Shown one piece after another: positions 206 through 21,758 of a DNA stretch of 64,000 nucleotides (the stretch's first letter is position 1; each line of letters starts with the position of its first letter). The notes below the pieces were generated by a model. It saw nothing but the letters and a program-made list of their open reading frames with translations. It had not been told where the DNA came from and did no database searches. This stretch comes from Sphaerolaimus hirsutus (Eukaryota > Nematoda > Chromadorea > Monhysterida > Sphaerolaimidae). The position numbers and the translations under genes are program-made. The stretch covers positions 2,725,206 through 2,789,205 of the forward strand of contig OZ038459.1 of assembly GCA_964036195.1 (NCBI GenBank), read 5' to 3'.

Positions 206-2832
206 GCGATATCACCCCAAAAGACAAGGGCAATCTTTTACTTGGCTTTTTGAACATATTCGGCGGCATGGCCATGCTCAGCATGATGTGGAACCTGGCG
301 CAGATGAAATTGGAAGCGTTCACTGCGGAAATGTCGCTGAAAATCAAGCAATCTTGGCTCACATTGGCGGAAAAGAGTGCGGATGATAAGATTTTGGTGG
401 TTGAAAATAATGATGCGGTCAGGTGCCACTCCCGCACCCTGTAAATCGCTCTGTTCTATGTCAAATGCCATGCAACTGTCAAAAGTCATGTAAGCGTCGC
501 AAATGGTGTGGGGTGGTGGGGGGGGGGGGTAACACCAAAATAGACCTGCTATCTATCTATTCCAGAAACAAAACCAGAAACAAAACTCTAGTGAACCCCC
601 CCCCCCCCCCTCCCCCAAATCTGCCATTTACCGTATATCCTCGAAGAAGTCCCCAGGGGAGTTATTTTTTCATCATCGTTATTGAGGGGGAGTTATTTTT
701 TCATCAGAAAACTTGGACTCGATTCATTGTAAATATGAATGCATTCTGTCAACTCGTGTAATCCAGGTATTTAACAGTTTTACAAAAACTAAAGGTGTGT
801 ATACACCGCAAACACATTATGTATCTGCTGTCGCTGCCATACATTACCATTCTTTTTTATTTTCATGGATCATTTTTGTCAAGTTTGTACCATATTTTTC
901 ACCCAGAGTGGGGGAGTTATTCAAAAGGGGGATTTATTCAAGGGGAAGGATTTATTATTTCGTCAGAGGTTTTGAGGGGGAGTTATTCAAGGGGGGGAAG
1001 TTTTTCGATGGGGGGTCTTATGCGAGGATATACGGTATCTGGAATGATTGTTGTGGACTATTTATCCCAGTTTTTGCTCGAAATCACTGAATTTTTTAAA
1101 CCGTTTTATACATCTTCACCTTCAAAATCCAGGACATTTTATACGCTTTTGAACCGTTGCATGACATTTTACATTTTACAGTGCATTTTACAGTGTCTGG
1201 GAGTGCCGCCCAGTAAAAAGGGAGGCGTTTCGAACAAGAAAAAGTTGGCAAAGAAAGCGGTGAAAAAGCGCTTGGATCAGGAGAACACTATATTTTCGAA
1301 AATGATGGGAAACTCGTTGAGGTTTGTATATTGTAATACATGATTTACATTAGTATATTGTTCCCAGGTTTCTACGGACAAATATTTTTTGGGAGATTTT
1401 CTGAAATTATACTTTCTCAAAATTATTTATTTTTTAGCAATTATAGCCCCACCCAACCCAACAACCAACTAGTGACGGAATGGCGTCAAGGCGTTATGGC
1501 GCTGGCGCCAATTAAGAGCGCCGCAGGGTGCCGCGCCATGGCGCCATTTTTCTGGCGCATTCCGTCACCACACAAAGCCTACGTACGCAGGGACAAACTA
1601 ATCGAGGACTACGAGAAAATGACGCGCACGCAGCACGTAGCCGTGCAAACGTGCGTCTCCACAGTGGAAGTTAGCGTGCAAACTGAACAGGTATCACTCC
1701 CGCACCCTGTAAAATGCCCTGGAAAATGTCAAATGTCATGCAAATGGACAAAAGTCATGTAAAATGTCCTAAAATGTACATTTGCCATTTTGCAGGACAT
1801 TTTACAGGGTCTGGGAGTGCCTGCAGATAAAACTGGTGAAACGGAAATTACACCCGGGCACGGGCGCCGCCCCCAGTGCCGCTGGCAGTGCCACGCCTAG
1901 GGCCACCCCTTATGCGCACAGGTTTGTGAGGGTGGGACGTAAAAATACCGTATTTCTCCGTGTAAACCGCCCCCCCCCAATGCACGATGCCCGGGGCTTT
2001 ACACAGCTTTATAACGTCACCGGGGCCGCTATGCTAGGGTGCAAAAACGTTGGCAGTTGAAAGATTTGAGACGTCCACTTTTAGGGTCGATAAGTCCAGA
2101 CTTTGAAATTTTAATTATGCGCGGGGGCGGCATCTAGAATTGGTCGCACACATTTTCCATCAAATGTCACTTGCCGCTATTTCAAAGAGCACATTTTGCA
2201 ACTTTTGGAACAATACTTCCAGCAAGAAGTTGATATCTTCAGGCTTTATGCAGCAAAAAGTCGATAAGTCCACTTCTTGCGGGAGGAGAACAGTAAGAAA
2301 TATGACGAACAAATAAACTGAAAACAAATAAATGAGAAATCAGTAAATTGTACTTACCATATATGCTCGAAAAAGTCCGAAGGGGAGTTATTTTTCATCA
2401 AACTTTTTTGACTGGGGAGTTATTCGGGTGGGTGGGGTTAGTCCAGTTTTTCGAAAGAGGGATGGCTTTTTCAACTATACACGCTTTATAGGCTCTATTC
2501 AAACACCCCCTTTAACCAATTCAAAAATCCCCAGCCTGGCTAGCAACGACGACCAGCGGAGTTCCCTTCTCACCGTGACCAACATTCGCACCAACATTTT
2601 CGACTCCGTCAAACGGCGCCTCGCCGGCGCCAAGGAAGTCGCCGCGCCCTCCGAAATTGAAGTGAAAAAGGCGCCCGCGAAAAAGACCAAATCTATAGCC
2701 GCGCTGGCGCGCAAAAAGCGAAAATGCAAGAAAAAGGGAAAGTTTAAGGTGAAGAGAACAAAGTTGCAGAGAGGGAAAAATAATCAGAAAAGTGTTAAGA
2801 AGGCGTCAGTTGAGGGTATTTGGTGGCCGTGA
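206..2832 (+). CDS. K2P (two-pore-domain) potassium channel, C-terminal five exons
   Basis: Exons 206-422, 1214-1321, 1591-1690, 1827-1921 and 2535-2832 (stop TGA 2830-2832) join in a continuous frame of 271 residues; phases 2, 2, 0 and 2 agree at every junction. The first exon opens with GDITP, matching the end of the second selectivity filter of K2P channels, then gives a hydrophobic helix with IFGGMAMLSMMWNLAQ, which resembles K2P transmembrane helix 4 (pattern FFGxALxSMxxNLxQ). The remaining ~230 residues would be a cytosolic tail, very rich in Lys/Arg near the end (KKRKCKKKGKFKVKRTK). The product should be a K+ leak channel of the plasma membrane. Upstream exons (TM1-TM3, first pore) lie outside the window. 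Introns 1 and 3 are complete introner-like elements. The last-exon acceptor could be 9 bp later (2543) without changing the phase. Confidence 0.75.
423..1213 (+). mobile_element. Introner-like element forming K2P intron 1
   Basis: The intron starts GTGCCACTCCCGCACCCTG immediately after exon-terminal TCAG and ends GGGAGTGCCGCCCAG. The two ends are inverted repeats of each other around CACTCCC/GGGAGTG. CAG stands on both sides, as a 3-bp target duplication would give. Removal joins the exons in phase 2 and makes an AGT codon. A second transposon (631-1035, TA-flanked) sits inside and accounts for the 791 bp length. Confidence 0.8.
631..1035. mobile_element. TA-flanked MITE, CCGTATATCC type
   Basis: The element begins CCGTATATCCTCGAAGAAG and ends in the complement (CGAGGATATACGG), with TA on both sides (629-630, 1036-1037). 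The interior has G-rich repeats of AGTTATTCAAGGGG. Related, poorer copies occur near 2357-2480 and 30906-31100. TA duplication and inverted ends fit a mariner/Tc1-type non-autonomous element. Confidence 0.75.
1322..1590 (+). other. K2P intron 2, holding a small GGCGCC-type element
   Basis: The donor is AG|GTTTGT and the acceptor TACGCAG|G. Within it, about 1480-1568 has ends TAGTGACGGAATGGCG and CATTCCGTCAC with GGCGCC words between, a degenerate short member of the TAGTGATGG hAT-like family. The rest is AT-rich. Confidence 0.55.
1691..1826 (+). mobile_element. Introner-like element forming K2P intron 3 (136 bp, minimal copy)
   Basis: The intron is nothing but the element. It starts GTATCACTCCCGCACCCTG, ends CAGGGTCTGGGAGTGCCTGCAG in two overlapping halves, and has a core of AAAATGTCAAATGTCATG words. 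The flanks are GAACAG before and CAG as the last three intron bases, so the duplicated trinucleotide is CAG. It interrupts the frame in phase 0. This is the cleanest copy in the window and the best type specimen. Confidence 0.85.
1922..2534 (+). other. K2P intron 4, repeat-filled
   Basis: The donor is CACAG|GTTTGTGAG and the acceptor CCCCAG. It contains a CCGTATTTCTCC-type MITE start near 1950 with a C-tract, and a CCATATATGCTC-type half element near 2357-2480. No coding signal was seen. Confidence 0.5.
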
Positions 2833-3019
2833 GCTTTTATTCCGTCCAACATTTTTTTCCGTTTTTGGGCACGTCACTTGTACAACACTTGCACAGTATT
2901 TTGAAAACGACAAGGTAAATAAATAGGTGAAACATGTTTTGCGTATAAAAGTTATCATTTCCTTGTTTCTGAACTTCCTCACTTGAGCTAAATATACACT
3001 AAATATAATATGAAAAATA

Positions 3020-3304
3020 CCGTGTTTGCTTGAATAATCCCCCTGAGGGATTATTAGTTCGTCAGACTTTGTTGAGGGGGGAACTAATCGAGGGGGGGGG
3101 GGTGAATTATTCGAGCGGGGAATTATTATTTCGTCAACAATTTCAACCATGTTTCTATCAACTCATTTGATGAAATATGCTTTATTCACACAAAAACGTG
3201 CCATTTTTGTTCAAATTGGGCACAATAAATTGACCAAATCTCTTAATGGGGGATTATTCGAGGGGAGGAATTATTCAAGGGGGGTAGAATCAAAGCAAAT
3301 ACGG
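3020..3304. mobile_element. TA-flanked MITE with G-tract interior
   Basis: It starts CCGTGTTTGCTTGAATAAT and ends GCAAATACGG, with TA at 3018-3019 and 3305-3306. Interior runs such as CGAGGGGGGGGGG and the word GGGGAATTATT place it with the mariner-like CCGTATTT group. Confidence 0.7.
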
Positions 3305-3953
3305 TATACATTATAATGATCTCTTATGTTAACGCAAACATGCCTATTTGCAGCTACCCAAGTTGCAGCTGTGCAAAATGCAAAAGTGATTCAAATTTCC
3401 AATTAAATACAATAAAATTACAAACCAGTTTGGAAAAAACAATTTCAACTTGCAGTTTGCATTATTGTAACTTATGCCACATTTGCAACTTAGGTATTCT
3501 TGGCGCAAATAAAAAAGTTTTTTTTTAGGGCAGCTGCAAATAAACATGCTAATCATTTTCCAAATATTTGACCTGAATATAAGCACACCATGACATGAAA
3601 CTCTTCTACATAAGAACATGATGAAAATTTGAATAGGTATATTTCAGTGATGTAAAAATTGCCACTATTTTAGCAGCCGGCACCAAAAGCTCCGTGGTGC
3701 CAGTTGCCAATGGCATAAAACGAATGGCGTTAAAAACTGGCAAAACGCCAAAGCGTCATTTACGTGGGGCTAGCGCTAGTGCCAGACACTTTTACATCAC
3801 TTTTCTGGTAATAGGGAAGTATTATAAGCCAAACACAGACTTTTGGGAAGCCCGATTCATTGCATACAAACTTATAAACTACCCGGTATTTACAATGCGC
3901 TTCGATTTGGAGCTAGGTAAATGTGTTTGGCTAATAAAGTTTCTCACTGTATA
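3305..3953. other. Non-coding stretch with a mini hAT-like element
   Basis: No gene was recognised. About 3648-3801 has inverted ends AGTGATGTAAAA and TTTTACATCACT around GGCACC/GCCAAAGCG words, like the TAGTGATG families, but no clear 8-bp duplication. The rest is AT-rich. Confidence 0.4.
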
Positions 3954-4280
3954 CCGTATTTCTTCTAAAAGAACAGCATACCTCCAATAGTAGGGCACCT
4001 CCAATAGAACGTCAGGTATAATATACATTGGAAGACTATCAAAACACAAACATACAAAAATAGGTGGTCAGAATGTTCAAAGCATTCAAATAGATATTAA
4101 ACTTCAAATTGATGCTGTGATATGAAAAAATGCTCAAGCTTCATTAAAGAATAAGACTCAAATGTTCAAATGAAAAGTGTGTGAAGAAATTGCTGCAAAA
4201 AGAACGGCAACCACCAATACAAGGTCAGGTGAAAAGTTGTCAAAAAATAGAACGGCGCTCTTCTATTTGAAGAAATACGG
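3954..4280. mobile_element. TA-flanked MITE, AGAACGGC type
   Basis: Ends are CCGTATTTCTTCTAAAAGAA and AGAAGAAATACGG, with TA duplicated (3952-3953, 4281-4282). The characteristic interior words are AGGGCACCTCCAATAGAACG and its complement near the other end. Same group as 44250-44663, 53218-53645 and 63467-63855. Confidence 0.8.
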
Positions 4281-4649
4281 TAATTGTCTATATAAATATC
4301 AATGGAGGTTGCAATATCACTTGTTCAAATCTACAGGCACGGTATTGATTTTTTAGGCACATCTAGGCACTTGGTGCCTATGTAGCATTCACCGGCAAGC
4401 AATTTTGCAATCTATTGTTTTTTAAATCAATAACTGCTTCCTAGGCAGACTCAAAACTATGATTACAAGTAAATAAATTGTCCTTGCCTTGAGAAAAATA
4501 TATCCATGGAGCTTATTCAGGCTATTATACTTGTACTGAATATAATAAATACATAGGGGTACTGCTGTTTGAATGTTCCAGAGACGTGTATTTAATTAAA
4601 TTTCTACCTATTTGGTTTATATTTATGCTTATATAACCGAGTCTGCATC

Positions 4650-5560
4650 AAAATCCAAACAGCGCATAATCCAAACAGCATAATCCAAACAAAAATGAGG
4701 CAAAATCCAAACAGAAGTAAGGCAGAATCCAAATAGTCACACAAGTTTATGCGATTTTCATCATGATTGTCATTCAATTATTATAACACAGCAAAAACAG
4801 CGCTGGTGATCTGCCCTGATCTGTGGTGAAGTGTCTTCACGAGTCACTTCAACGCACTTCATGGGTGCCAAAGCACTACCAAATGCTTCATGAAATTTCT
4901 CGTGAAGGCACTTCACAGATGGCCAGGCACTTTGTTGTGCATTTGTGAAGAGTCTTCATGAATGGTGCAAGCGGTGTGACGTGCAAAAACATATAATGCA
5001 TTTCTGCGGTGAAGGCACTTCACGAAATACGAAACGCTTCCCTGAAATGGGTGGCATTTGTGAAGTGCCTTCATGAACGGCATTCATGAAGCGCTTGTGA
5101 AGTGCATTCCAACGGTGATCAGGCTTGATCAGGGTTGGAAGTGTGATCATGAGCGGTGAAATGCTCAGTGATCAGGCTTGATCAGGCTCTGAAGTGTGAT
5201 CACGAGAGGCACTTCCAACCGCTTCAGTGCACTTCATGAGCGTTTTATTTGCTGTGTATTGTCACTTTTTTCACTTTCTTTTTATTTAAATTTATTTACT
5301 CGCGATTTATTTCAATATATTTACTCGCACTTGAGGATGACCTTCACTTGAACTTAAAATCAACTATAAATAATATTGCATACATCCGAGATTATGCCTT
5401 ACTTCTGTTTTTATTCTACCTCATTTCGTTTGGATTATGCTGCAGTTGGTGGCACAAATAAATGTTTGGATTTTGCCTCATTCTTGTTTGGATTATGCTA
5501 CAAAAGTGTTTGCATTGTGCTGTTTGGATTATGCGCTGTTTGGACTTTGGTTTTTGCCCA
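4650..5560. mobile_element. Palindromic element (AATCCAAACAGCATAATCC) with a second element inside
   Basis: The outer arms carry repeated AATCCAAACAGCGCATAATC words on the left and the complement (GGATTATGCGCTGTTTGG) on the right. Nested inside, about 4788-5257 begins ACAGCAAA and ends TTTGCTGTGT and is packed with GTGAAG(T/G)CACTTCA words and GATCAGGC. No coding frame is convincing. Target duplications were not resolved. Confidence 0.55.
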
Positions 5561-5685
5561 TTTGACCGCATCCGCATACTTTAGAGAATGTTGCCATATT
5601 TTGTAGAATAATAAATAATTTATGACAAGATAAATTGTGCACCAAATTCACTACCAACGTATTTAATTATCGTATTCACTTGAAA

Positions 5686-6553
5686 TAGCCCAAGGGAGTA
5701 GGGAGATCACATTATTATGGCAGCAAATTTTGAGGAGTAGGTAGGGAGATCACAAATTGCAGTTTTTTGCAATTATTTACATTCTCTTTAGACTCATTTC
5801 GGGTGGGGGCATTTCGAGGGGGCGGGTTTATTTTTAAACTCGCTCAGACCAAGGGGGGGTGGGTCAATTCAAGGGGGGTATTTCAAGGAAATACGCTATA
5901 TTTTATGTGATATGAGTGAAAAACACAAAAAATTCTGGTCCGGTATTAGGACAGGATGAGTCACATTTTGCTGTAAAGTGTGCAGCAGTACAGTATAATA
6001 ACCTTCACATGGTAATGTAAGCAAAAAACGAATAAAAATATATGAAAGAATCGAAAAATTATGCTATCCCATCATTCACTTCGGACCATAGTTGTTCAAA
6101 CGTATTTACATTTACCTAATCGATAAATACGTATACTCGAGTACTGCGTAAAAAGGTACGTTTACGTTTCATCCGGAGAAAAATACCGGTACTCACTTAC
6201 TCACGTACTCTTGAAAGTGCGCGAGTAGAGGAAACGTATTTCAGATATGTTTTTTATAGGCTTTTTCAAGGTATAAAGGAAAAAAATGGACAAAAACGCA
6301 GCAAACAAGGACAAAATATCGAAAATACCGTATTACCTCGAAATACCCCCACGTGGTTTATTATTTCGCCAGCAAACTCTTGCATTTTTGTACGTCTGCG
6401 TACGTTACCAACGATAAATTAGTACTGGTAGATCAAAAAATTTCTGGTGAAATAATAAACCCCCGTCGAAATAACCCCTTCGCTTAACCCCCCCTCAAAA
6501 TTCTCACTCTGAAAAAATAAACCCCGGGGGTATTTCGAGGAAATACGGTAAAA
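5686..6553. mobile_element. Two CCGTATT-type MITEs in an AT-rich stretch
   Basis: 5686-5906 is a degenerate copy (CGTATTCACTTGAAATA to GGAAATACG). 6328-6548 is better kept (CCGTATTACCTCGAAATAC to GAGGAAATACGG, TA on both sides). AAATACGTATACTCGAG words near 6120-6240 belong to the AAACGT hAT-like family. Confidence 0.6.
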
Positions 6554-6613
6554 CGTAGATAGCTACACAAATTAGTCTATGTGTAGCTGCCATGCAAATT
6601 AGCAGAAATCAAT

Positions 6614-7506
6614 CAGAGTTGTTAGAATTACTGAACTTTTTTAACAGTATATGTAAACGTAAAGTATTTTTTTTTTACTCACCACAAAGTAAAGAAAACG
6701 TAAAATACTTAATTTTTACTCGTACGCACGCGTAAATGTGAGTACAAAATTTTTTTCCATTAAAATGGAAAAGCAAGTACTTTTCTTCATAGAATATGTA
6801 AAACTGGAACTGGGTACATTTTCGAAATACAACCCTCAAAATGGCCACTACAAATTACATTATTGATCCCCTGTCGAACCCCCCCCCCACCCAAATTGAA
6901 TGTAAAGGGAACAAAAATATCAAAACCTTCGGTTTGTTTTCTGTGTATGCAGAACACATGTTTAAACAATGACCAAGTCACTTTAGACCAGAATATATAC
7001 CATCTATATTTACATACCTACTTATATATTTAGATCTATTAATATACTCTTATATAAAAATAATAAATAATAAATAATAATAAATAATAAATAATAATAT
7101 TATACTAATAATAATACTCTTATACTCTCATGGAGCTTGTTGTTGCATTTTTCTACCTCAGTGTATGTTACAAAGAACGAATTAGTGCTGAGAGTTCCGA
7201 AAGATTCTGGCAAAATAATAACCCCCTCGAAAAACCCGCCCTTGTTTAACTCCCCTCAAAATTTTCACTATAAAACAATCACTCCCAGGGGTATTTCGAG
7301 GAAATAGAGTAAATTGCAGCGTAGTCACCTTATAAATATGTCCCAAATTGAATTCACAGAAATACATTTTCTTTACGCGTATGCCTCAAAAATGTACGCG
7401 TACATGTGAGTACGTTACTTTTTTTAAAAGTATATGTAAACGTATTTACCGCGTACTCGCGTACGCGTATTTTTCGAGTAAACGTACGTACCTTTTAACA
7501 ACTCTG
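6614..7506. mobile_element. hAT-like element, AAACGT family, with nested CCGTATT-type DNA
   Basis: Inverted ends CAGAGTTG and CAACTCTG are flanked by a perfect 8-bp duplication AAATCAAT (6606-6613 and 7507-7514). Subterminal DNA repeats (T)ACGTTTAC/GTAAACGTA. The interior holds a G-tract MITE remnant. There is no transposase. Homologous in inverted orientation to 61528-62354. Confidence 0.85.
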
Positions 7507-7878
7507 AAATCAATACATCATGTACATTGCATACATGATATATTTACATCATACCGGAGGGAGGGGGTATTTCAAGGGGGGGGGGAGTTATTATTTCCCC
7601 AGCCCATTTCGGTGGGTGTTGAATCGAAGGGGGCTAATTCTAGGATGGGTTTATTCGAGGGAGGGGATTCGAGGTTTACGGTAAGCTAAATTAGTGGAGC
7701 TGTCGCTAAATAAGTATTTATGGAAAAAAAGATAAAGTATTCAAAATATTTTGGTGGAAAACTAAGCACATCGATACTCAGACGACGACATATTCTTCCA
7801 AAAGATTTTCTGCGCCAGGGGGCAGTCCCGCACTCTGTTAAAGGACAATTTTCCCCAGCCCCCAAAAATCGACGCAAT

Positions 7879-10800
7879 TCAATGCCCCTCGCGACTGCTC
7901 AAACTATGCTGCGTATTAACCGTAGTGGTGTCGCTACTGGAACAATCGCCGCTGAACACGCTGCTCTCAGCTTCGTTGCCGCTGCCATTGCTGGCGGCAC
8001 TCCCGGACCCTGTAAAATGCCCTGCAAAATGTCTCATGTCATGCTAAGGGTCTAAGTTATGGAAGATGCCCTGCAAATTGACTAATGTCATGTAAAAAAT
8101 CGAAATTCAGGACATACATATACCTATTTGCCATTTTCCAGGGCATATTCCATGGCTTTAGACTATTTGCATGTATTTCACCATTTACAGGGCATTTCCT
8201 ATGACTAAACTCTTTGAATGACATTTGACATTTTGCAGGTCATTTTAATGACTTTTATAGACACTTTGCAGTGCATTTTCCATGATTGAAGACACTTTGC
8301 ATGACATTTTCACTTTCCAAGACATTTTCCATGACTTTAGACAATGCCCGACATTAGACATTTAGCAGGGCATTTCACAGGGTCCGGCAGTGGCACCTGG
8401 ACTTCATCTCGTCGTCGGGCAGCGGCGGCGAGTCGCCCGCCGCCGACGAACGGAAAACTGTCGCGCTGACTGCAGCTTTCGCGCTCCGACTCGCTCGGTC
8501 GGCCGCCAGGCGTTTCCGTTGCGCTCGGTTCACCTGAGGAAAATGGAGATGTTGATAGCGTGTCAACTTTCCGTTTTCCGTTTCCGTTTTCCGCAGGCAA
8601 AATTTTCAGTTTTCATTTTCCGGCTGCGAATTTTTTTCAGTTTCCGTTTTCTGGCTGATAAATTGTTTTCGGTTTCCATTTCTGATTTCCGGCTCAATTT
8701 TTCTGTGTTTCACCTTTTTCCGTTTTTCGGCTCAATTTTTCTGTTTTCCGTTTCAGCCAAACTAGTAAAACTGCATGCAATTTTTTCAATTATTGTTTGC
8801 TATTGTTTCCAGCAAAATTTCAGCAATATTTTCCGTTTCTGTGCAAATTTTGCTTTCCGTTTTCCGTTTACCAGCAGTTCATTTTCAGTTTTGCAGCAAG
8901 TGCAAACATTTTTCCATTTCTAATTCCGACAAGGGCAGGGTAGTGATGGAATGGCGCCATGGCGCTGGCGCCATTTGAGGGCGCCAAAGGGCGCCGCGCC
9001 ATGGCGCCATTGGCGCTTGGCGCCCTTTTTCTGTGGCGCCCTTGGCGCCTGGCGCCCACATTCTGAAAGGCGCCATGGCGCCCTTGGCGCTTGGCGCCCT
9101 TGTTCCGTGGCGCCCTTTGGCGCCTGGCGCCCTGCTTTAAAAAGGCGCCAAAAAGGCGCCAGCAGGGTTTCAAGGTGAGCGTTGTTTAAATGAAAAAAAT
9201 GAACAACTCATCCGTGGATGATCTAAATTCGCCAGAAAAATGGACAAAGTGGTTTGAGTGGGTGGGAATCTTTTGTCGAATGGTTCATAAGATGTGCCTG
9301 AGCGATCAGAAGACAAGAATGATGGACCATCGAACTTGCAAAATCATAAATCAATGGATTCAAATCGTTGCAATTCCGTTTTTGTCCATTTCAAGGGAAC
9401 ATTGATTGAAAAAGTCTATTTGAAGTGAATGGATTGTTGTCTAATGACAATTTCCATTGTGTTTGAATTTGTCATGGGGGTGTTTTATAAAAATATTCTG
9501 TTGCTAGTCTTGTTTTTGTTAATTAAATCCTGGAGAACGTGAATTAAGACGTAAATGCATGTAAACAAGTGCTGTATAATCATTTTTAGCACACACAGGG
9601 TGTTGTACGCACCTATTTATACTGGCGCCCTTGGCGCCTGGCGCCCTATTTTTCAAATGGCGCCATGGCGCCCTTGGCGCTTGGCGCCCTCTTTCCGTGG
9701 CGCCCCTGGCGCCTGGCGCCCACTTTCCAATTAGCGCCATGGCGCCCTTGGCGCCTGGCGCCCTTTTTCGGTGGCGCCCTTGGCGCTTGGCGCCCATTTT
9801 CCAATTAGCGCCATGGCGCCCTTCGCGCCTGGCGCCCTTTTTTCTGGCGCTTTTCCATCACTAGGGCAGGGGCAAACATGTTTAGGTAGGTAAAATGGAT
9901 GGAATTCACAATATTGTAGGTTTGTCCAAATCACTTTCCATAATTTTTTTAGTTTTACAGTTCGCGGGGAATTCGCAAAATGACCCACCTCATCGTGCAG
10001 TTTGTCAATCTCCATCTGCAGTTTCTCACGCTCCAACTGTATCTTCACACGTTCGTCGGCCAACAAAATGCGCTCCTGTGCGATTTTGAGTCGTTCGTCG
10101 GCGATTTGGCACGATGCCAACCCGGCGTGCCTATCCGCCTTTGCGCAAGTCTGCGATATTTTTTTTTCATGCATTAAATCTGGCCACACGGACTAGTTTA
10201 CTGCAGAGTTGTTAAAATACCGGTATTTTTGGAAAGTGTAAATGTGAGTGTAAATACACTTTCCAAATTTTGAGTATGGATACCAAAAGTGTAAGGTATT
10301 TCAAAAATACCTAGGAAAGTGTAAAAAAGTGTAAGTGTAAAATTTTTTTTAGAAAGAGCTCTCACTGTTGAGCATTAGAAAACACCGCTGTTCTCACCTT
10401 TAGATCAATTTATCATTTTCATGCATTATTTCATATTTTACAGCCTTTTATGAAACATTTCAGACTGTAACAAATACTGTAGTGGTATGAAGTTCCCTAA
10501 TAATGGCAGTTTTTCAGTGTTGATGTTTTACTGATTAAGCAATGTGATACATACTGTTTAAATGCAAGAATGGACATGCAGCAAATGTCAATGCAAAAGT
10601 TGACTTTGTGTCCCGTTGGTGAACTTCCATTGATCTTGTCCTTTTTACAAAAGTATGATGAAACTGTAGAATACCATGAGTACTAATCAAAGCTTGTAAA
10701 TCAAAGGCTAGTTTCTACATGTGCCATATTTTCTACATTCAATGCATTTTTTGTACATGACCCTATTTTATGCTTTCTCCAAAGCATAAAACAAGGCCAT

Positions 10801-11133
10801 CTGAAAGAAAAAATACACTTTCTGTACCCGGGTATTTTGCACAGGAGAGTGTAAAAAAAGTGTATGGGTAGTTTATGAAAGTGTAAGTGTAAATATAAGT
10901 ACCCATTTACCCGGGTATTTCGGGTAAGTGTAAATACACTTTCGCAACTCTGGTTTACTGCCGAAATTTTGGCACTGATCAATACTCTGTTTTCAAAATA
11001 TTTGAGTTCGCCGTAGCTACTTCCCGGTTCTTCAGTAAAATACAGTACGCAAAAGAACAATTTGTCGGTTTGGAATTGTTCTATTGCGGTTTCAAAACGT
11101 TCGAATAAACTCCACAAGTATTCCGTTTTTATT
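7879..11133 (-). CDS. Coiled-coil protein, C-terminal four exons (possibly the end of the Myb/SANT gene upstream)
   Basis: Exons in transcript order are 11133-10959, 10192-9989, 8533-8397 and 7990-7879 (stop TGA 7881-7879). Lengths and phases (1+174, 204, 137, 112) fit one frame throughout. The second exon encodes a charged amphipathic helix with the heptad-like ERLKIAQERILLADERVK and EREKLQMEIDKLHDE, as often follows Myb/SANT-like domains. The tail is Ser/Thr-rich (VFSGDCSSSDTTTV). The first exon (YLWSLFERFETAIEQF) is not recognised. Intron 10193-10958 is an hAT-like element plus its duplication. Intron 8398-9988 carries another hAT element. Intron 7991-8396 is an introner. The start is uncertain, and linkage to the gene at 11223-19541 needs a non-ideal donor near 11228. 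Confidence 0.6.
7991..8396 (-). mobile_element. Introner-like element forming the last intron of the coiled-coil gene
   Basis: Read on the minus strand it starts GTGCCACTGCCGGACCCTG after exon-terminal TCCAG and ends CCGGGAGTGCCGCCAG. CAG stands on both sides. Splicing in phase 2 makes an AGC codon. The core is repeated CATTTTACATGAC and its complement. Confidence 0.8.
8556..8940. mobile_element. Partial hAT-like element, ACGGAAA family
   Basis: Starts TAGCGTGTCAACTTTCCGTT and continues with many TTTTCCGTTT words. The other end is not found; the 8941-9863 element is inserted in it. Compare the full copies at 38728-39555 and 14983-15306. Confidence 0.6.
8941..9863. mobile_element. hAT-like element, GGCGCC family (923 bp)
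   Basis: Ends are TAGTGATGGAATGGCGCC and GGCGCTTTTCCATCACTA, with a perfect 8-bp duplication GGGCAGGG (8933-8940, 9864-9871). Both subterminal regions are arrays of GGCGCC, GGCGCTTGGCGCC and CCATGGCGCC. The middle (about 9180-9600) is AT-rich and shared with 13826-14901 and 60372-61248. No transposase domain seen. Confidence 0.9.
10204..10952. mobile_element. hAT-like element filling an intron of the coiled-coil gene
   Basis: CAGAGTTG...CAACTCTG with a perfect 8-bp duplication GTTTACTG (10196-10203, 10953-10960). Subterminal GTGTAAATGTGAGTG words. On the gene strand the duplicated CAGTAAAC lies at both splice sites: donor GCA|GTAAAC in one copy, acceptor AAACTAG| just after the other. The flanking exons join in phase 0. 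Confidence 0.85.
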
Positions 11134-11222
11134 CTGCGGTGGCAAAAGTATTCAAAAATTTGAAAATTCCGTAAAAATTCAACATTCACAAATTGTTTAT
11201 TTAAATTATGGCACAGCGCATT

Positions 11223-14200
11223 TCAACACTTTTTACGCTGTCCAGGGAGAAAAATAGGAAAAAAACAGACATCGCTGCCGCTGGTAGTTTTGTCGCTTTG
11301 CCCGTGATTTTTCGCCTGTTTCTGTGACGTATTGAGGGCCATTTTTTTACTCTTTGATATGGTAAACTTTTTCGGCGAACTGTGAATGTTGCCTTCGTTG
11401 CTGCCTTTGCTTGTGCTGCTCGAATCGAAGTTCGATGAACTTAACGCCTGTTTTTTATTACAGATATTTATGGTTTAATTCAATTAGCCCGGCCAGGGAT
11501 TTTGTCTGGGGGTTGTATACGAGGCCTGGGGAATGGGGGGGGGGGAGGGTGGCACCCCCTAAGATGTACACCTGTATATAATACGGGAATGGGGTCAGGG
11601 CAGTGGAGTGGTGCCATGTCTGACAGGGTGGAATAATTCATGAGGGGGAATTATTCAAGCAAAGGTGGTAAAAGGTACTGGGCACAGCATTGAGTAAATT
11701 ATTTATACTACTGATACATACCGTATTTCCTCGAAATACCCCCTCGAATAAGCCCCCACCCCCCCGAAATAACCACCACAAAATTTGCACCCTGCAAAAA
11801 ATAAACCCCCTGGAGTTATTGCGAGGAAATACGGTACATATTATATGAATTGAAAAAATAACTCTCGCGAACTTCTCATAAAGTCACTGAATAAATATGG
11901 CATCTTTTAAATATGTCAGACCCTGGAAGAGGGGGGGGGGTTGCCCCCCCCCCTGGGTAGGTGCCAGAGCACAACATTTCGTGGAATTGTAATTGGCTCA
12001 CCTCTGAACTGTTGCCACTGCGCATGTTGCTGCGCGTGCGCTTCCAGCCGCGTCCGGACATCAGTCGTTTCAAAACCATCCTTAGATTAAGATTAAATTG
12101 ATCAATTGTTTGGATGATAAATCGCGAAAATATTTTAATTCATTATTGGAAAGACTGATTTGCGAAATATGAGAAGATTGTTTACATTGGTTCATAGTTG
12201 TACACTAGTACACTGCCGTGCAGAATAGTTGAGACTGCGCACGCTGCATTGATAAACTTTGCTAAAATTATGAAACGTTGAATGTGGATACACTTGGCAG
12301 GTACCATGGGTATTGGCTAAATGTTCCCGGGATGACGTAGACTCCCTAGACATGTAAACCCGCTCGACATGTGGACCTATTACGGGGTCTCCAAGCGGTG
12401 GGGGGGGGCTGCTCAGCTAGGTATCCATATATTCCGGCAATAAATACTATTCTCTGAGCCTCCAGCTGGTTGACATGTCCACAGGTACAGGCTGCGAGCT
12501 ACTCAGAAATAGAGGTTGACACACCTGTCAGTGAAGTCATTTTGTGTGTAAATTTGAGATTCTTACTTTGCTCTTTTGGGAGTTAAACTTGGCCCAACTA
12601 TCAATATAGTTTGGAGGGACTTAGGAGGGGGTCCCTCAACCCCGGGTCCAAAGTAATATTTCTGGGTCTTTATTAGAACTCCAGACTGATCTAAATACAC
12701 ATCCAAAGTGAGGCATAGTCAACAATCATTGAAACATGAGTATTGCGGGTTTGACACAATGCATGCCTACACACCTACTCAACTATATGTAATGTGCAAG
12801 TGGAGGATGGAAGTTTGAAGTGCTATTGAAAAAGAAAGAATGAGATATTGAAGATTTTTTTGACCATACTACACTAACTCATCACAGCTAGCACTAACAG
12901 CTACTTTTTATGAAAAAATGGAGCTTTTAAAACTGAAAAATGCCACACAACCAATGAAAACACCAATGGTAATTTGGGGCCTGTGCCTCTGTGCATGTTT
13001 ACCCGCTGTGCATGTCAGGAGTATTCAAGACTCTGACCCTCCAGGGGGTTGGATAGATGGCTAATTGCTCCTCTGGAGGGATAGATAGCTAGAAAAATTT
13101 TTTGGGGGGTTTGGGGGTTTGTGGGGATTCATTATATAGGCTTTTTCATGATGAGGAAAAAAGGTAGAAAAATTGCTTAAACTAAGTGAAAAATTACTAA
13201 AAATGGGTATATAAGCACATATACTACAAGAAATAGCTGAAAATAGACAATAAAACACATGAACTAGTGATTTTGAAGGTGAAAATGTATCAAATGGTAT
13301 GAAAATGAGCGATTTTGTGTGAAAATTAGGGTCTACATGCACAGCGGGTAAACATGCACAGAGAGCCTCAGTCGGTAATTTGTATGTGAAAATGAGCCTC
13401 CCATTTTTCCAGGTGTGGAAATTCTCAATTATTCTGCACAGTACTGTATTACTGTATTCTGCACAGTACCATGGTGTAGTACCAGTACAGTACCACTTTT
13501 ACACCACTACACACAGTTTGTCAAGTGAAAATACCTCGTGTGCTGCGCACTGGCAAAGTGGGCAAAGCTCCTGGTCTTGCCCTTGTCGCTTTCATCTTCA
13601 TTGAATGTGGACCCTGTGGAGTCTGAACTGGACGTCTTCGATTCGGCATCTCGCGCCATTGCCTGCAAAAGAAAGATACATTTTTATGTTGGAAAAGGAA
13701 ATGCCTGGGCCGGAGTATGTAAAGTCACCGTGGCTTTGATGCCTGATGCTAGCCCCAAAGCAGAAGCATCATTTTTTGCACTAGCTGCAAAGCAAAAAGT
13801 GCCATGGTGCTTCGCAGTTCCAGACTAGTGATGGAAAAGCGCCAGAAAAAAGGGCGCCAGGCGCCAAGGGCGCCATGGCGCCATTCGGAAAGTGGGTGCC
13901 AAGCGCCAAGGGCGCCACAGAAAAAGTGCACCAGGCGGATGTAATGAACAAAAACAAGACTAGCAGCAACATTTTTTTAAATTAAATCCACATCAAGAAT
14001 TTAAACACAGTGGAAATTGTCATTTGGCAACAATCCATTCACTTCAAATAGCCTTTTTTAATCAATGTTTTCCTTGAAATGGACAGAAACAGAATTGCAA
14101 TGATTTGAGTCTGTTTCTTTAGGCAGTGTTTACACGGATTCTTTGTGATGACAAACATTGTGATTTTGTCAACCATGTTTTTGGGTTAAAACCAATAAGT

Positions 14201-17200
14201 AGATAGATCGGACGCCTCAATTGATCATTATTTGATCGACCCCATTACATGGAACAATAATAAATTGTTATAGATTACGCAGTAATGCACAACAGATAAT
14301 GTATTTTTCTTGTTGTCGTAGCTTTGTCGGAGGGTTTGTTCTACGGGCCTCGCTAGCTAGGCCGCGTAGAACAAACCCTCCGACAAACCTCCAACAACAT
14401 GAAAAAAGTGTGATCTAGTGTGCGTGATTAGGGAAATTATGGAATTTGATGTATGCCCCAGGCAGTGAAGCTGGCACAATCACGATCAATTGAGGTATCA
14501 CACATGTAATATATTTCTCGTTGATTCCACAAGAACAGTTATAAAAATATTTTTTGTCGTCACAGCAAATCTGTGTAAACGCCGCCTTATGATTTTGCAA
14601 GTTCGATGGTCCACCATTATTGTGTTCTACTATTCTGATCCATCAGACACATCTGATGAGCCGGTGGATGAAAGATTTCCACCCACTCACACAACTTTGT
14701 CCATTTTTCTGGCGAATTTAGATCATCCACAGATGCGGATGGATTTACACAGCACTCACCTTGAAACCCTGCTGGCGCCTTTTTGGCGCCCTTTTGAAGT
14801 GGGGCGCCAGGCGCCAAGGGCGCCACAAAAAAAGGCGCCATGGCGCGGCGCCCTTTGGCGCCCTCAAACGGCGCCAGCGCCATGGCGCCATTCCATCACT
14901 ATCCCAGACCCTGTAAAAGACCCTGTACAACATCATTTGTCATGAAAACCCCCCTGTAAGGTGTCAAATGTCGTGTAAACACTAGGGTGTCAACAAAATT
15001 TTTCTATACTGAAAATGGAAAAAAATTTGCACTTGCTGGAAAACAGAAACGGAATTTTTTTGTAAAAAAAAAATACTTGCCGGAAAACGGAAATGGAAAA
15101 AAAATTGCCCACGGAAAGCGGAAACAGAAAACGGAAACATAAAAAATTGTGCCTGCGGAAAGCGGAAACGGATAAAATTTTGCACTTGCCAGAAAACGGA
15201 AGTGGAAATTTTTTTTTGCACTTACCAGAAAACGGAACGGAAACAGAAAAGATTTTGCCTGCGGAAAGCGGAAACAGAAAACGGAAAACGGAAAGTTGAC
15301 GCCCTAGTAAAATCCCTGTAAGGTGTCATGTGTTGATGTGTATCCAAATCTTATTGTATTGTATTCAAATCGTATGTTTTTGCATCCAAATCTGCGGCCA
15401 CGTTTTACCCCAATTGAATCTAGCGCCTTGTGCAAAAACGATCGCACCTGGTGATAAGAGCGGTGCTCTATGCGGCCGCAAAATATCCTATCCCCTCCCT
15501 CGCCATTCGATTGAATTGATGATGAAACTTCTGTAGAGAAGGAAGGTTGTTTATCATTGGTTTTCTGAATTATTTGGCATTGTGCCAAAAGCAACAGCAA
15601 AAACACACAAATGAGCATACCGTCACTGGTACTACTGAAGTCACTCTGTACAGCAGAAGTTGAATTCCCCTGGAACCCATTGGACGTCTTCTCGGCTGTG
15701 CTGCTTTGACCTATGATTTTGGCATACCGTATTCCCTCGAAATACCCCCCCCCCCCGGAATAGTTTATTTTTTAAGACTGCAAATTTTCACGGGGTGATT
15801 TAAGGGGCTATATGATTCGTCAGAATTTTTTTGAACTCCAAGTGATTATTCGTTGTAGTTTTTTTTGTAGCGTACGTTGATGTGTAGATGGTATAAGTCC
15901 TGTCCTAACGTAACTCAGTCATCGTTTTTAACGTGTGTGCTGCATTGCACAGATCACAAACTTTCAGATCTTTTACTCATTTCGGGTTAGGTATTTCGAG
16001 GAGGGTGGGGGGGGGGGGTCAATTCAAAGGGGGGATTAATTCGAGGAAATACGTTAAGCACCTTCTAGGAGTTGCCTTTATGTAAGAAATTACTTTTGGC
16101 TATCGATCACGAACAAACGTTTCCAAAAACAAACCACTATCCTTCTCTTTCTGAAAAGCAGGCGGTCTTTCCTTCCTGTGCTCGAGTCCGTTCGCCCCGT
16201 CATGAACCTGTCCCTGTTCATTCTGAGGGCCATCTTTGTGCTGGGCATTCTCAGCGCTGCCCACAAGATCGGCCATTTTCTTGACATATTTTGGAGGGGT
16301 GTGCGGTCTGGTGATACTTACAGACCGTGCAAAATGACATGTGAAATGTAAAATGTCATGTAAAGTGTCATGTAAAATGTCGTTTAAAAAGTAAAATGTC
16401 ATGCAAAGTTAGATGTAAAATGCCATGTAAAATTTCAAATATCATGCGAAGTGTCATGTAAATCGGCATGTAAAACATCATGTAAAGTTTCATGTAAAAT
16501 GTAATGTAACATGTAAAATACCATGCAAAGTGTCAAGTAAAATGCTATGTAAAATGTCAAACGCGTTTGCACTTTCACAAGACATTTCACACAACTTTTA
16601 ACACTTACATTTCCCAGTTCATTTCACACGACCTTCAACACTTAACACATCATTTCACACTTGACATGTCACTTCCCCCGGTCTCTAAGTGTCACCTTGG
16701 CCCCATGCCAGTGGCGTGCCTGCGCACCTCTGCCCTGTATCGCCTTGCCCGCTGCTCCAGGGCGCTCACTTTGCCCTTGATGCGGCCGGCGTCGTGCTTG
16801 GCGTGCATGTCCGTCCTGCCGTTCACTTCGTCCACCAGCTCGTGCCACGCTTGCGCCTGTGTGATTTGTGGGGGGGGGGGGGTTGGGGAGGGTTTTGGGA
16901 GCTACCGTAACCCTGGAAATACCCCCAGGGGGTTGTTATTTGGCGAGCATATTTTGAGGGGGTTTAGTTCGAGGTGGGCTAATTGGAAGGGGTTTTTTTT
17001 CGTCAGAATTTTTTCCAGAAGGATCGTAGTAAAGAGTAGGCTTTAAATACACACCCAAAACGTAATAAATCCGGCCAAATAATGGTAAATAATAAAGTAT
17101 AATAATAAAAAGAATAGAAAAGTAATCAGAAAAATTTGAAAATTCAAAAACACATTAAAATGAAACATTTTTTCCAGTGAGTTTGCCATCGTTATCTGCA

Positions 17201-19541
17201 GCATTATAAAATTTCGAATTATCTGAAAAAAGATGTCATGCTTACCTGACCGTCATTTGACTGAACAATATTCGCATCGGCATCACTTTGAACATTCGCA
17301 TTTTCACCAGCGCACATTTTCTCAACATTATTCTCAGAATTTGTCACTTTCTGAGCGCTCGGATACCAACCTTCCTGGAATTTTTTGGTCCGCGGTGTTT
17401 CTGCGTAGCGAAAAAATGAGTAAAATTGGTTGTCGGCATATTTCTTTGTCGAATATTTTTCTGCAAATGAGTAGTGATGGTAAAGCGCCATGGCGCTAGC
17501 GCCAAACGAGAAAGCGCCATGGCGCTTTTGGCGCTTGGGGCTATTTCGCTGAGGCGCCATTGGCGCTTGGCGCCAGAGGAAAATTACGCGAAGAGCCAAA
17601 ATCACCATATGGCGCCTTTTCGTTTGGCGCTAGCGCCAGCGCCAGCCATGGCGCTTTCCATCACTAACACCCGGTAGCCCAAAATTCCAAAAACGTCCAC
17701 CTACTATTATTCTTGGCTCCATTCTTGTTCTCTTTCGAGGACAGACGAAAATAATATTTCTCGTAAACTTCGACCAAAACGCATCTTTCATCGTCCGTCC
17801 AATTTGGCGACGAGCGGCGGGTTCGTTTGCTTTTGAATTGTCGAAATTTTCCCTTTTTCGCATCCGAAGCATCCTGGCTTTCGTTTGAACCTGGGCCCGG
17901 TCCCAAATCGTGTAGAATGTCAAATGTAATGTGTTATATTTCATGTCAATTATCATGATAAGTGTTAAATTTCTTTTTCAGTTTTGACTTTTAAATAATT
18001 TTTATCCCTCGGAAATCGGAATAGTATTTAGTTGACATTCCTGTTAACTGAAAATGCACTTAATTCTCAAAGCTGATACGACAGTTTTCCAAATGTTGAA
18101 ATTTCAGTAGAAAACTAGTGTTTGTTAGATCTTTACTTTTTAATCACATTTTGCATTTTTCACATCATTTTACTTCTGGCAGAACATTTCACATTTTACA
18201 TGACATTTTACATGGTGTGGGACGGGCACCTGATTTCGCTTTGCTACCACGGCAATTTTGATCGTTCTGCGGCTCGCCGCCATCGATTTTTTGATCAGCG
18301 GAGGCCAAACTCACAGATTTAGCCTCTACTGCCTGCGAGTTTTAGTTGCGGAAATTTTATTTCTGGGGTCTAGTAGAGCACTTTCTAAATTCTTTACGCT
18401 TACGCTTTTTTACGCTTTCCTCTGTATTTTAAGAATACCTTACGCTTTAAGAACATTGACGCTTTAAGAATTACGCTTAGATTTATATTTTTTCACGATT
18501 TTCCAGAGAGAGATTTAATTATATTTTCTTTTTGAGAGATTTCCTGAGATTTTTAAAATTATCAGAAAATTTATCAAATTCTGATATTTCTATTTCTTTA
18601 TACTTTTTTCCAGGCTTTTGAGAGAGATTAAATTATATTTCATTCTTGAGAAATTTTCTGAGATTATATTTAATTATGTTTTCCAAAAATTGATGATTTT
18701 TTCAATGCTAAAGGCGGTCAAGATTCAAATTTGTGTTTAGGTTAGCGTTTCAAAAATAACCGATTTTGAGTGAAACGCCTGGAGGCGGAGTGAAGTTTCT
18801 TCACACTGTCACCGCATGTCCGCGTGAAGACACATCACAACACTTCACCACACATCACACACCCAATTCTTCCTGTGATAACTGAAAGTCTGAACGCCCC
18901 CCCCCCCCGCAAAACCAACCGTCACTGGCATAAGTGCCTGCTCTAAAATGCGTCCTGAGTCATCTGTAGGCAGTCCCAGACCCTTTAAAATGCCCTGTAA
19001 AATCTCAAATGTCATGTAAAGTGTCAAAAGTCATGTAAAATGGCCTGTAAAATGGCAACCGAGTCCATGACTTTTGATACTTTGCTTGACATTTTACAGC
19101 GCATTCTACAGGTCTGGGATTGGCACCTGGACCGACTGCACGCCGACCACCACCATGGTCATCAGCACGGCCACCACCATGAGCATGAGGAAGGTGGACA
19201 GCATGGTCAAAGTGCTGCAGTTCCACTTGGCCCGTGGCACTCGCAGGTGCGATAGTGGTCTGGGCCTGGGGGCACTAACTGACCATGTGAAGTGCCCTGG
19301 CAAATGTCTAATGTCATGCAGAGCGGATGAAGGCATGTAAAATGCCATGGAAGATGTAAAATGTCGTGCAAAGAGGCTTAAATCATTTAAAATGTTTTGG
19401 CAAATAGCAATTTGCATGACATTTGACATTTATACCAGGGCATTTTGCAGGGTCTGGCAGTGGCACCTGGTTCGGGTACAGGCCGCGAGTTGACTCGCTA
19501 CTGCTCACCTGGTCCCGGTTTTGCGCACATGATTCTGCCAT
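11223..19541 (-). CDS. Myb/SANT-like DNA-binding domain protein, 13 exons
   Basis: Exons in transcript order: 19541-19467, 19265-19127, 18963-18920, 18332-18230, 17890-17701, 17357-17246, 16856-16696, 16316-16111, 15710-15621, 15530-15448, 13662-13535, 12080-12002, 11447-11223 (TGA). All junction phases agree, giving 544 residues from ATG 19541-19539. The core is a Myb/SANT-like (zeste/MSANTD type) domain split over exons 5-7: SSPNWTDDERCVLVEVYEKY, then AQAWHELVDEVNGR and GRIKGKVSALEQRARRYRAE, with spaced Trp and a basic third helix. A likely nuclear regulator or domesticated transposase relative. The N-terminus is His/Gly-rich (HAHGGGRADDHGGG); the tail is Ser-rich and basic. Exon 6 could start at 17460, but that breaks the phase. 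Four introns are introners. The terminal TGA may be bypassed if the gene continues into 11133-7879. Confidence 0.65.
11226..12001. other. Short CCGTATT MITE and C/G-tract DNA in the last introns
   Basis: Below 11447 this is the coding exon of the Myb/SANT gene. The intron above it holds a 114-bp minimal MITE at 11721-11834 (CCGTATTTCCTCGAAATAC to GAGGAAATACGG, TA on both sides). 11530-11550 and 11930-11955 are G and C homopolymer runs. Confidence 0.5.
12211..13446. mobile_element. Tc1/mariner-like element, CACTGCCGTGCAG ends (1236 bp)
   Basis: Ends are CACTGCCGTGCAGAATAGTT and ATTCTGCACAGTACTG, TA on both sides. Closest relative 50967-52229. The interior has shared AATTTGAGGTT/GCCCAACTAT words but no transposase frame. 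It lies in an intron of the Myb/SANT gene. Confidence 0.7.
13826..14901. mobile_element. hAT-like element, GGCGCC family (1076 bp)
   Basis: TAGTGATGGAAAAGCGCC to GGCGCCATTCCATCACTA. Flanks TTCCAGAC and TCCCAGAC are a 7/8 target duplication inside introner DNA. The middle includes a tight hairpin at about 14326-14388 (TTGTCGGAGGGTTTGTTCTA and its complement). Confidence 0.85.
14983..15306. mobile_element. hAT-like element, ACGGAAA family (324 bp)
   Basis: Ends are TAGGGTGTCAAC and GTTGACGCCCTA. Flanks GTAAACAC and GTAAAATC agree in 6 of 8. Packed with GGAAAACGGAAA words. The motif resembles the AAACGG subterminal repeats bound by plant Ac transposase. Confidence 0.75.
15727..16054. mobile_element. 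CCGTATT-type MITE in a Myb/SANT intron
   Basis: CCGTATTCCCTCGAAATAC with a C-tract to TTCGAGGAAATACG. The right end is one base off CGG. TA precedes the left end. Contains the conserved inner words CGTACG, GTGTGCTGCATTGC and CAGATCACAAAC. Confidence 0.65.
16317..16695 (-). mobile_element. Introner-like element forming an intron of the Myb/SANT gene (AAG target)
   Basis: On the minus strand the exon ends CCAAG, the intron starts GTGACACTTAGAGACCGG and ends GCACGGTCTGTAAG. The trinucleotide on both sides is AAG, not CAG, so the repeat varies with the target as a true duplication should. The core is a long array of ATGTAAAATGTCATG words. Phase 2; splicing makes an AGT codon. Confidence 0.75.
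16857..17245 (-). other. Intron with a degenerate CCGTA MITE
   Basis: Donor CAG|GTAAGCATG, acceptor CACACAG|GCG. About 16904-17040 has CCGTAACCCTGGAAATACC with GGGGGTT runs; the other end is not clear. AT-rich remainder. Confidence 0.45.
17358..17700 (-). other. Intron with a small GGCGCC-family element
   Basis: 17472-17665 runs TAGTGATGGTAAAGCGCC to GGCGCTTTCCATCACTA with GGCGCTAGCGCC arrays. No 8-bp duplication was found, so its borders may have decayed. The open frame 17358-17460 next to it (YADNQFYSFFRYAETPRTKK) may be coding if another acceptor is used. Confidence 0.5.
17891..18229 (-). mobile_element. Introner-like element forming a Myb/SANT gene intron (phase 1)
   Basis: On the minus strand the exon ends AAATCAG, the intron starts GTGCCCGTCCCACACCATG and ends GATTTGGGACCGGGCCCAG. 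CAG on both sides. Exon frames join as TCA G/GT TCA. Confidence 0.8.
18333..18919 (-). other. AT-rich intron with short GAGAGATTAAATTA repeats
   Basis: Donor GTGACG|GTTGGT, acceptor ACTCGCAG|GCAGTAG. 18490-18680 carries diverged repeats of GAGAGATTTAATTATATTTT. 18780-18860 has TTCACAC/GTGAAG words as in 4788-5257. A C-tract lies at 18897-18908. Confidence 0.45.
18964..19126 (-). mobile_element. Introner-like element forming a Myb/SANT gene intron (163 bp)
   Basis: On the minus strand the exon ends GTCCAG, the intron starts GTGCCAATCCCAGACCTG and ends GGGTCTGGGACTGCCTACAG. CAG on both sides, phase 1. With this junction the upstream exon must be read in the His/Gly-rich frame. Confidence 0.8.
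19266..19466 (-). mobile_element. Introner-like element forming the first Myb/SANT gene intron (201 bp)
   Basis: On the minus strand the exon ends AACCAG, the intron starts GTGCCACTGCCAGACCCTG and ends TTAGTGCCCCCAG. CAG on both sides, phase 0. The right end has decayed more than in the other copies. Confidence 0.75.
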
Positions 19542-20920: not shown

Positions 20921-21273
20921 CAATTTAGTGGCAAAGAATTAACGACTCGTGACCTAACCTATGGTCCACTGACTGCATACTTTGCAATAAAATGTACCAT
21001 ATCCCATGCGAGAAATAAACATTAAAATAAAGACAAACCATGTCCATAGTTGTTCAAACGTTCAAATTTATGTTGACTCAAAAAATATGTATACACAGTA
21101 TACTACTGATTGAATTCATTTAAGTTTCCTGTGAAAAAAGTACCTGTACTCGTTTTTATATTATACATTTATGTACATTTATATTTTTGAAAGAACTCGT
21201 GTACAGAAAAGTTATTTTAGATTGAAAGGCAAAAAGGGAGAAAAAAAGGAAAAAATAGGTGAATATATAGGTA

Positions 21274-21758
21274 CCGTATTTCCTCGAAATACCCCCGGGG
21301 GGTTTATTTTTTCAAAGTGAGAATTTTGAGGGGGGGTTAAACGAGGGGGGGGGGTATTTCGAGGGGGGTTTATTATTTCGCCAGAAATTTTTTGAAAACC
21401 AAGTACTAAATTGTCGTCTGAAACGTACGCAGACGTCGAAAATGCAACAAAACTCGCCATTTATAAGACTCTAAAGACTTGTATAAGTGTGTAGACGTAT
21501 AATCACTGTTCTCACATAACAGAGTCATCGTTTTTAACGTGTGTTTTGCATTACCCGGATGACAAACCGCAGCCTTTGTCATTTACGTTCTGTATACACT
21601 AAATTTGGGGGGGGGTATTTCGAGGGGGGGGTTTATAAGTTCATAGTGTCCATTTTGAGGGGCGTATTTCGAGGGGGGGGGGGGTATTTCGAGGGGGGGG
21701 GGTATTTCGAGGGGGGGGGGGGGTATTTCGAGGGGGGGGGTATTTCGAGGAAATACGG
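21274..21758. mobile_element. CCGTATTTCC MITE with tandem TATTTCGAGGGG units (485 bp)
   Basis: CCGTATTTCCTCGAAATACC to GGTATTTCGAGGAAATACGG, TA at 21272-21273 and 21759-21760. Tandem GGTATTTCGAGGGGGG units lie near the right end. G runs spaced by about 9 bases could fold as long-loop G-quadruplexes. Confidence 0.85.

Follow-up and report, generated by a model that had tools for sequence, protein, structure and literature searches.

The genome of the nematode Sphaerolaimus hirsutus carries an abundant family of short repeats, and its copies are very probably introners: a non-autonomous, NuwaI-like foldback miniature inverted-repeat transposable element (MITE) of about 192 bp that becomes a spliceosomal intron when it lands in an exon. 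The family was analyzed from a 64,000-nucleotide window, the whole stretch of DNA under study (assembly GCA_964036195.1, 348 Mb in 762 contigs; contig OZ038459.1, positions 2,725,206-2,789,205 of the forward strand). A sequence-only reading of the window had proposed that seven introns in three gene models derive from one transposon family. Genome-wide dispersal, transposon anatomy and gapless protein junctions with SGLT1, EAAT1 and TLR3 bear out that interpretation. The reading covered genic copies only, and a further complete copy lies at 36028-36203; it also missed the logic of the target site (CAG-GT...CAG) and the NuwaI-like character of the element.

Family copies in the window and their host genes

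The seven intervals are present as drawn, with the GT...AG borders and inverted-repeat ends read from the sequence. On the coding strand all run from GT to AG; six are preceded by CAG and one by AAG (at 16695). Gene A, on the plus strand, contains E1 (423-1213, CAG-GTGCC...GCCGCCCAG), whose core is enlarged by other repeats, and E2 (1691-1826, CAG-GTATC...GCCTGCAG), which is 136 bp long. The other five are on the minus strand: E3 near the C-terminus of gene B (7991-8396, CAG-GTGCC...GCCGCCAG), E4 after the Myb/SANT-like domain of gene C (16308-16695, AAG-GTGAC...ATCACCAG), E5 before that domain (17891-18229, CAG-GTGCC...GGGCCCAG), E6 (18964-19126, CAG-GTGCC...GCCTACAG) and E7 (19266-19466, CAG-GTGCC...GCCCCCAG). 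E4 had been placed at 16317-16695, an interval that is intron-like and keeps the frame. A border at 16308 fits the family better because the inverted repeat extends 9 bp farther, to CACCAG, in the same frame. E4 belongs to a separate subfamily, GTGAYACTTAVAGACCG, which the profile of the other copies misses.

Read inward, the donor ends of the seven elements are mostly GTGCCASTCCC-like, and the reverse-complemented acceptor ends are mostly CTGnnGGCASTCCC-like. Past these tips the arms stay alignable for about 75 bases, CCCTGTAAAATGCCCTGTAAAATGTCAAATGTCATG, more loosely in E4 and E5; the core arrays of the AAATGTCATG type described in the sequence-only reading are real. The halves of all eight complete elements, the seven plus 36028-36203, are inverted repeats with scores higher than any of 200 shuffles reached; E5 is the weakest case (34 against 25). 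A leave-one-out end profile recovered both ends of five of the seven elements (E1, E2, E3, E6 and E7) and one end of E5, and thus six of seven members; the shuffled-window control gave 1 match in all over 21 scans. Three introns were folded and form strong hairpins (z = -9.9, -8.1 and -4.7), the first value belonging to the single hairpin of E2. Two other accounts of the ends were rejected by eye: 8-bp duplications outside the CAG occur in none of the seven cases, and a CACTA-type element with inverted repeats starting at CACT is ruled out by mismatched flanking triplets.

Gene models were joined by eye across ordinary introns. Gene A stays open through E1 (phase 2), an ordinary intron, E2 (phase 0) and a second ordinary intron to a stop near 2830, and gene B is open through E3 (phase 2) to its stop. 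Gene C is open through E5 (phase 1) into the Myb/SANT-like domain and then through E4 (phase 2). The domain (Pfam Myb_DNA-bind_5, 5.4e-6, with its two parts joined by eye) begins in 17705-17890 and continues in the minus-strand exon 16696-16873.

An open frame had been said to be restored in every case. This is well supported for the five introners of genes A, B and C, and possible for E6 and E7, two copies of the family within genic surroundings. Upstream of E7 the sole frame open over all of 19467-19524 would make it a phase-0 intron (third-position GC content, GC3, 0.79), and removing E7 from end to end would continue this frame in 19127-19265 with a GC3 of 0.41. A rival open frame of 19127-19265 has a GC3 of 0.87 and looks like a membrane helix; in that frame E6 would be a phase-0 intron close to a stop, and in the other a phase-1 intron. 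E7 may be a whole intron, or it may form the 3' portion of a longer one with a GTGAGC donor near 19499.

The complete copy at 36028-36203 (plus strand) sits inside a globin intron, about 50 bp from its donor and away from its borders. Its CAG lies within a longer inverted repeat, and it has no acceptor at its right end because its edges read CAG...CTG. The host gene, on the minus strand (Pfam Globin, 7.8e-9), has an exon at 36257-36372, others at about 35680-35845 and 39590-39640, and a likely C-terminal exon near 32390-32560; a protein search found one relative, P0001, 44% identical.

Genome-wide anatomy, target triplets and protein junctions

The exact 22-base left end with CAG, CAGGTGCCASTCCCRGACCCTG, occurs 1488 times in the genome (756 + 732) and its counterpart with CTG 1260 times (625 + 635), and reversed control patterns gave 0 matches. 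The two counts should be equal if orientation and target were neutral; the excess of CAG amounts to about 4.3 standard deviations by hand arithmetic. One exact match each in viral_contigs and genome_contigs lay in unrelated coding-looking sequence and was attributed to chance. A search of the assembly with E2, in which 40 of the 2316 first-look candidates were scored, returned at least 122 matches. Across 20 loci of 10 kb, the untargeted sequence held 13 complete copies, which extrapolates to a genome total of very roughly ten thousand or more; the figure is rough because the loci had been picked around copies.

Alignment of 34 copies of 176-196 bp yielded a 192-base majority sequence. When one of its halves, about 96 bp each, is reverse-complemented, the two differ at just a few positions, almost all of them in the tips, where GGTGCCAATCCC stands against GGGGGCAGTCCC, giving GTGCC at one end and GGGGC at the other. 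Identity to the majority sequence has a median of 0.94 and a range of 0.59-0.96, with young copies over-represented because the 34 were mostly best matches. Short length, many copies and terminal inverted repeats identify the element as a MITE, its coding capacity being judged from its size.

Target triplets were compared in 48 end-to-end copies from 39 sequences (300 kb), collected with a strict end profile that recovers five of the eight complete window copies. The left and right triplets were CAG/CAG in 15 copies, CTG/CTG in 8, CTG/CAG in 4, CAG/CTG in 3 and others in 18, the last group including 5 copies with CAG on the left and a right CAG one base off. Left and right triplets agree above chance (Fisher one-sided p = 0.008). 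The value is 0.015 without two duplicated segments, 0.016 when the window is also left out, and 0.018 for the 25 copies that score well at both ends. This agreement matches the CWG (CAG or CTG) target-site duplication of the NuwaI group. Flanks of CAG/CAG copies have a median GC content of 0.61 (n = 15) versus 0.43 for CTG/CTG copies (n = 7; p = 0.024), as expected if the CAG/CAG copies sit in exons. In a systematic sample of 20 (every fifth among the first 100 listed CAG-left sites, all on contig C1, with one site swapped out because it had already been fetched), a right-edge CAG was present as aligned in 14, including L049, whose tip reads GGCACC. Two more gain it if one C is missing, and an AG lies within 9 bases in 17 of the 20. 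As a separate observation, one CTG/CTG-flanked copy apparently occurs twice in L016, at 2800 and 7433, 4.6 kb apart in a segmental duplication.

Flanks could be joined in 31 of the 48 copies, and 10 joins picked by eye were searched against Pfam. Domains appeared in four and spanned the junction in two. Three chosen cases, judged from sequence alone, have homology that closely covers the junction, and in each the predicted removal of the element restores the protein with nothing added. In an SLC5 gene (L019, contig C3) the residues AVWYWCSDQ-VIVQRALSAK join without a gap against SGLT1 (E = 3.4e-30), and Pfam SSF spans the junction. Immediately ahead of the element stands a CAG codon, which encodes a conserved Gln of sodium/glucose cotransporter 1. 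The presence of this residue in SGLT1 shows that the target pre-existed and that no codon was added, and the match would give indirect support to intron creation by insertion. An SLC1 gene (L041, contig C16) aligns without a gap against EAAT1 (E = 6.3e-18), with Pfam SDF (1.2e-16) spanning the junction. A leucine-rich repeat (LRR) gene (L012, contig C2) joins LPS-SLTSL without a gap against TLR3, with E = 2.8e-4 for the stretch over the junction and 3.3e-21 for the whole match; LRRC15 matches residues 1-81 in one stretch across the junction (4.7e-19). This LRR gene has a second copy with the same introner, L011, on the small contig C108, whereas C2 is chromosome-sized; the two are 90-95% alike over three stretches and represent an allele or a recent duplicate. 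Taken together, the copies are putative introns of similar sequence, with similarity reaching close to both splice borders, they lie in coding exons, and in the three chosen cases their removal appears to restore the protein.

Mechanism, alternatives and neighboring features

The data suggest a simple route from insertion to intron. A transposase would cut a CWG triplet and duplicate it. Where the triplet reads CAG on the sense strand and the GTGCC tip faces upstream, the product would be exon-CAG-GTGCC...GCCCC-CAG-exon: the element would supply the GT donor, the upstream CAG the preferred exon end, and the second CAG the AG acceptor, while folding of the hairpin may place donor and acceptor side by side. 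Such an insertion would be born as a complete, scarless intron, because CAG is both a favored exon end and an acceptor, and splicing would return the old mRNA. In the other orientation the CAG-GGGGC tip would offer no GT donor, and an insertion at CTG would have no AG acceptor at its right edge. Insertions without a donor or acceptor would be expected to survive chiefly in noncoding DNA, except where an acceptor evolves afterward. Six copies with CTG or CCG on the left and CAG on the right suggest that mutation can also create an acceptor at a later time. We put at about even the chance that the CWG preference itself makes the introns, that a burst placed about a thousand or more new introns in one animal genome, and that the CTG-flanked copies are its unspliced control.

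Could the ends of the element carry both splice sites, CAG-GT on the left and CAG on the right, with no duplication and a CAG codon left in the mRNA? CAG occupies the left edge more often than any other triplet (25 of 48 copies, some lacking an acceptor), the copy at 36028-36203 has its CAG inside the longer inverted repeat, and discordant copies exist. The agreement of left and right triplets argues against such an arrangement, as do the SGLT1, EAAT1 and TLR3 alignments, in which no residue is added at the junction. CTG left ends are nearly as numerous as CAG ones, which means that CAG is no fixed part of the element, and we regard this explanation as unlikely. It is improbable too that older introns were invaded later and that the borders of element and intron match by chance or selection. 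The globin copy inside an older intron, the possible GTGAGC donor that would make E7 the 3' part of a longer intron, and the dense nests of other repeats around the window genes are in line with such invasion. The element tips coincide with the predicted splice sites in E1 to E5, SLC5 and LRR, and nearly so in SLC1, a coincidence unlike random insertion into introns.

Two further explanations are very improbable. Copies may have spread as spliced RNA by reverse splicing, as proposed for ascomycete introner-like elements; many copies do end at splice sites, and the three folded introns are strong hairpins. The inverted repeats and agreeing CWG triplets point instead to a DNA element, and eight CTG/CTG copies have no right-edge acceptor on that strand and no GT at the other tip. 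The gene models could also be wrong and the copies untranslated repeats that are never removed. Protein searches found no homolog for gene A among 3229 candidates or for gene C among 39, and gene B had nothing above the Pfam curated cut-off, no homolog search beyond Pfam being made. The restoration of conserved proteins on removal and the Myb/SANT-like domain of gene C between two elements speak against this view.

Several results weigh against the interpretation of the copies as introners created by insertion at CWG. Seven of the 30 copies with CWG on both sides are discordant, and the complete window copy at 36028-36203 reads CAG...CTG. In 18 of the 48 an edge shows a different triplet or an indel, and 17 lack an AG in the vicinity of their right end. 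No empty allele was present among the fetched locus sequences. Six of the ten joins chosen by eye had no Pfam domain, and in two of the four with one the domain begins past the junction: a G protein-coupled receptor (L031) and the LRR_8 domain of L012. Ten of the 20 systematic joins gave no Pfam domain, and a PDB search with one systematic join found nothing. In the SLC1 gene the AG sits behind extra Cs at the right edge, and in a HUWE1-like gene (L033, 4e-9) the junction adjoins 10 residues that the human protein lacks. The leave-one-out profile run on the window found neither end of E4, and the two transposase loci read carry no family-like end. Splicing of the family copies is something we infer from the genomic sequence.

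The genome contains 163 matches to DDE_Tnp_4 (PF13359). The listed Harbinger-type transposase copies mostly have about 4 TGA codons each. Recoding of TGA was considered and rejected, as in one copy read (L070) the TGAs appear within two short introns; the TGA-rich copies are therefore probably unremarkable.

Other remnants of the family in the window are an old copy nested inside a larger repeat at 27684-28138 (equal nested units at about 31490-31922 and 41735-42150), a lone right end at 25904-25931 on the minus strand (CAG-GGGGCAGTCCC read inward), another at 7816-7848 on the plus strand downstream of gene B, and a weak right end at 139-165 on the minus strand (E = 0.068), possibly a copy clipped by the window edge. 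A longer element at 27258-28530 has ends CAGGTGCCGGTTCCGC and CAGGGGCCAGTTCCGC and arms GGAAAAGTTAAGAGTTA, and it may be a cousin of the introner family because the tips are alike. G/C-run repeats ACCGTATTTCCTCGAAATACCCCC...GGGGGTATTTCGAGGAAATACGGT are frequent, for example at 11730-11850, 21270-21760, 37320-37778 and 40315-40778. GGCGCC-rich repeats with TAGTGATGG ends, which we take to be hAT-like, occur for example at 8940-9860, 13830-14900 and 60370-61250. Neither the Rfam scan nor the tRNA scan of the window returned a match, and the 200 N at 54574-54773 are probably a scaffold gap. Elsewhere in the assembly, the mitochondrial COX1 gene (contig C762; Pfam 7.0e-110) forms an open frame only when its 14 TGA codons are taken as an amino acid. 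The invertebrate mitochondrial code gives a sensible reading, with 14 AGA codons decoded as Ser, 24 ATA as Met and 8 AAA as Lys, and the recoded codons presumably fall at fitting conserved positions. Together with the globin, SLC5, SLC1, TLR-like LRR and GPCR genes, COX1 indicates an invertebrate host.

Relation to known introners and transposons

The origin of introns is an old open question, and clear animal cases are few. Gozashti et al. 2022 (PMC9860276) report introners in 175 of 3,325 genomes, with only two groups of animals among them. The family described here offers many young-looking copies and a simple rule to predict the insertions that give rise to introns. With CWG as the target, its CAG- and CTG-flanked copies provide a natural experiment in splicing and selection, and the CAG-flanked ones can already be seen to outnumber the others (1488:1260). 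The target site also ties intron gain to a named animal transposon group.

That group is NuwaI, within the PHIS (PIF/Harbinger, ISL2EU, Spy) elements. In its survey (PMC4482050), NuwaI elements make CWG duplications, are confined to animals among the hosts surveyed, and have inverted repeats that usually start with GGG. Autonomous members combine a PHIS-type transposase with a Myb/SANT ORF. The S. hirsutus family resembles the group in its agreeing CWG triplets and its animal host; one of its tips, GGGGC, starts with GGG and the other is GTGCC, and no transposase has been tied to it. The survey searched by transposase and by its own account may have overlooked MITEs, and the word "intron" appears nowhere in it.

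Some introner families bring one splice site and borrow the other from the duplicated target, according to PMC9860276, from which the next three comparisons are also drawn. Nearest in splice logic are the introners of Chrysochromulina sp., in which the 5' splice site likewise comes from the element and the 3' site from the duplicated target. Their duplications are 4 bp and they have no terminal inverted repeats, whereas here 3-bp CWG triplets flank a near-complete foldback. Introners of Symbiodinium microadriaticum and Aureococcus also have target-site duplications, and those of Symbiodinium have terminal inverted repeats as well. In Symbiodinium the 5' splice site comes from a 4-bp duplication, whereas here it lies in the element; the Aureococcus family depicted there has both sites of its own and lengthens the mRNA by 12 bp, whereas nothing appears to be added in the SLC5 case. 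The introner elements of Amoebophrya (PMC7789003) share hairpin-capable inverted repeats near their ends and direct repeats of 3-5 nt at exon borders. They were defined among non-canonical introns and have no family-specific inverted-repeat motifs, in contrast to the GT-AG introns of one family found here. Reverse-spliced fungal introner-like elements have neither inverted repeats nor target-site duplications; the S. hirsutus family has inverted repeats and agreeing CWG triplets.

Among the titles and beginnings of abstracts listed in literature searches, no description of this family was found, and "introner" and "Harbinger" occurred together in one fungal paper. The S. hirsutus family belongs to a known kind of element, the introner, of which its CWG logic, its near-perfect foldback with asymmetric tips and its scale in an animal genome set it apart as a distinct variant; the family itself, the CWG logic and the abundance in an animal look new.

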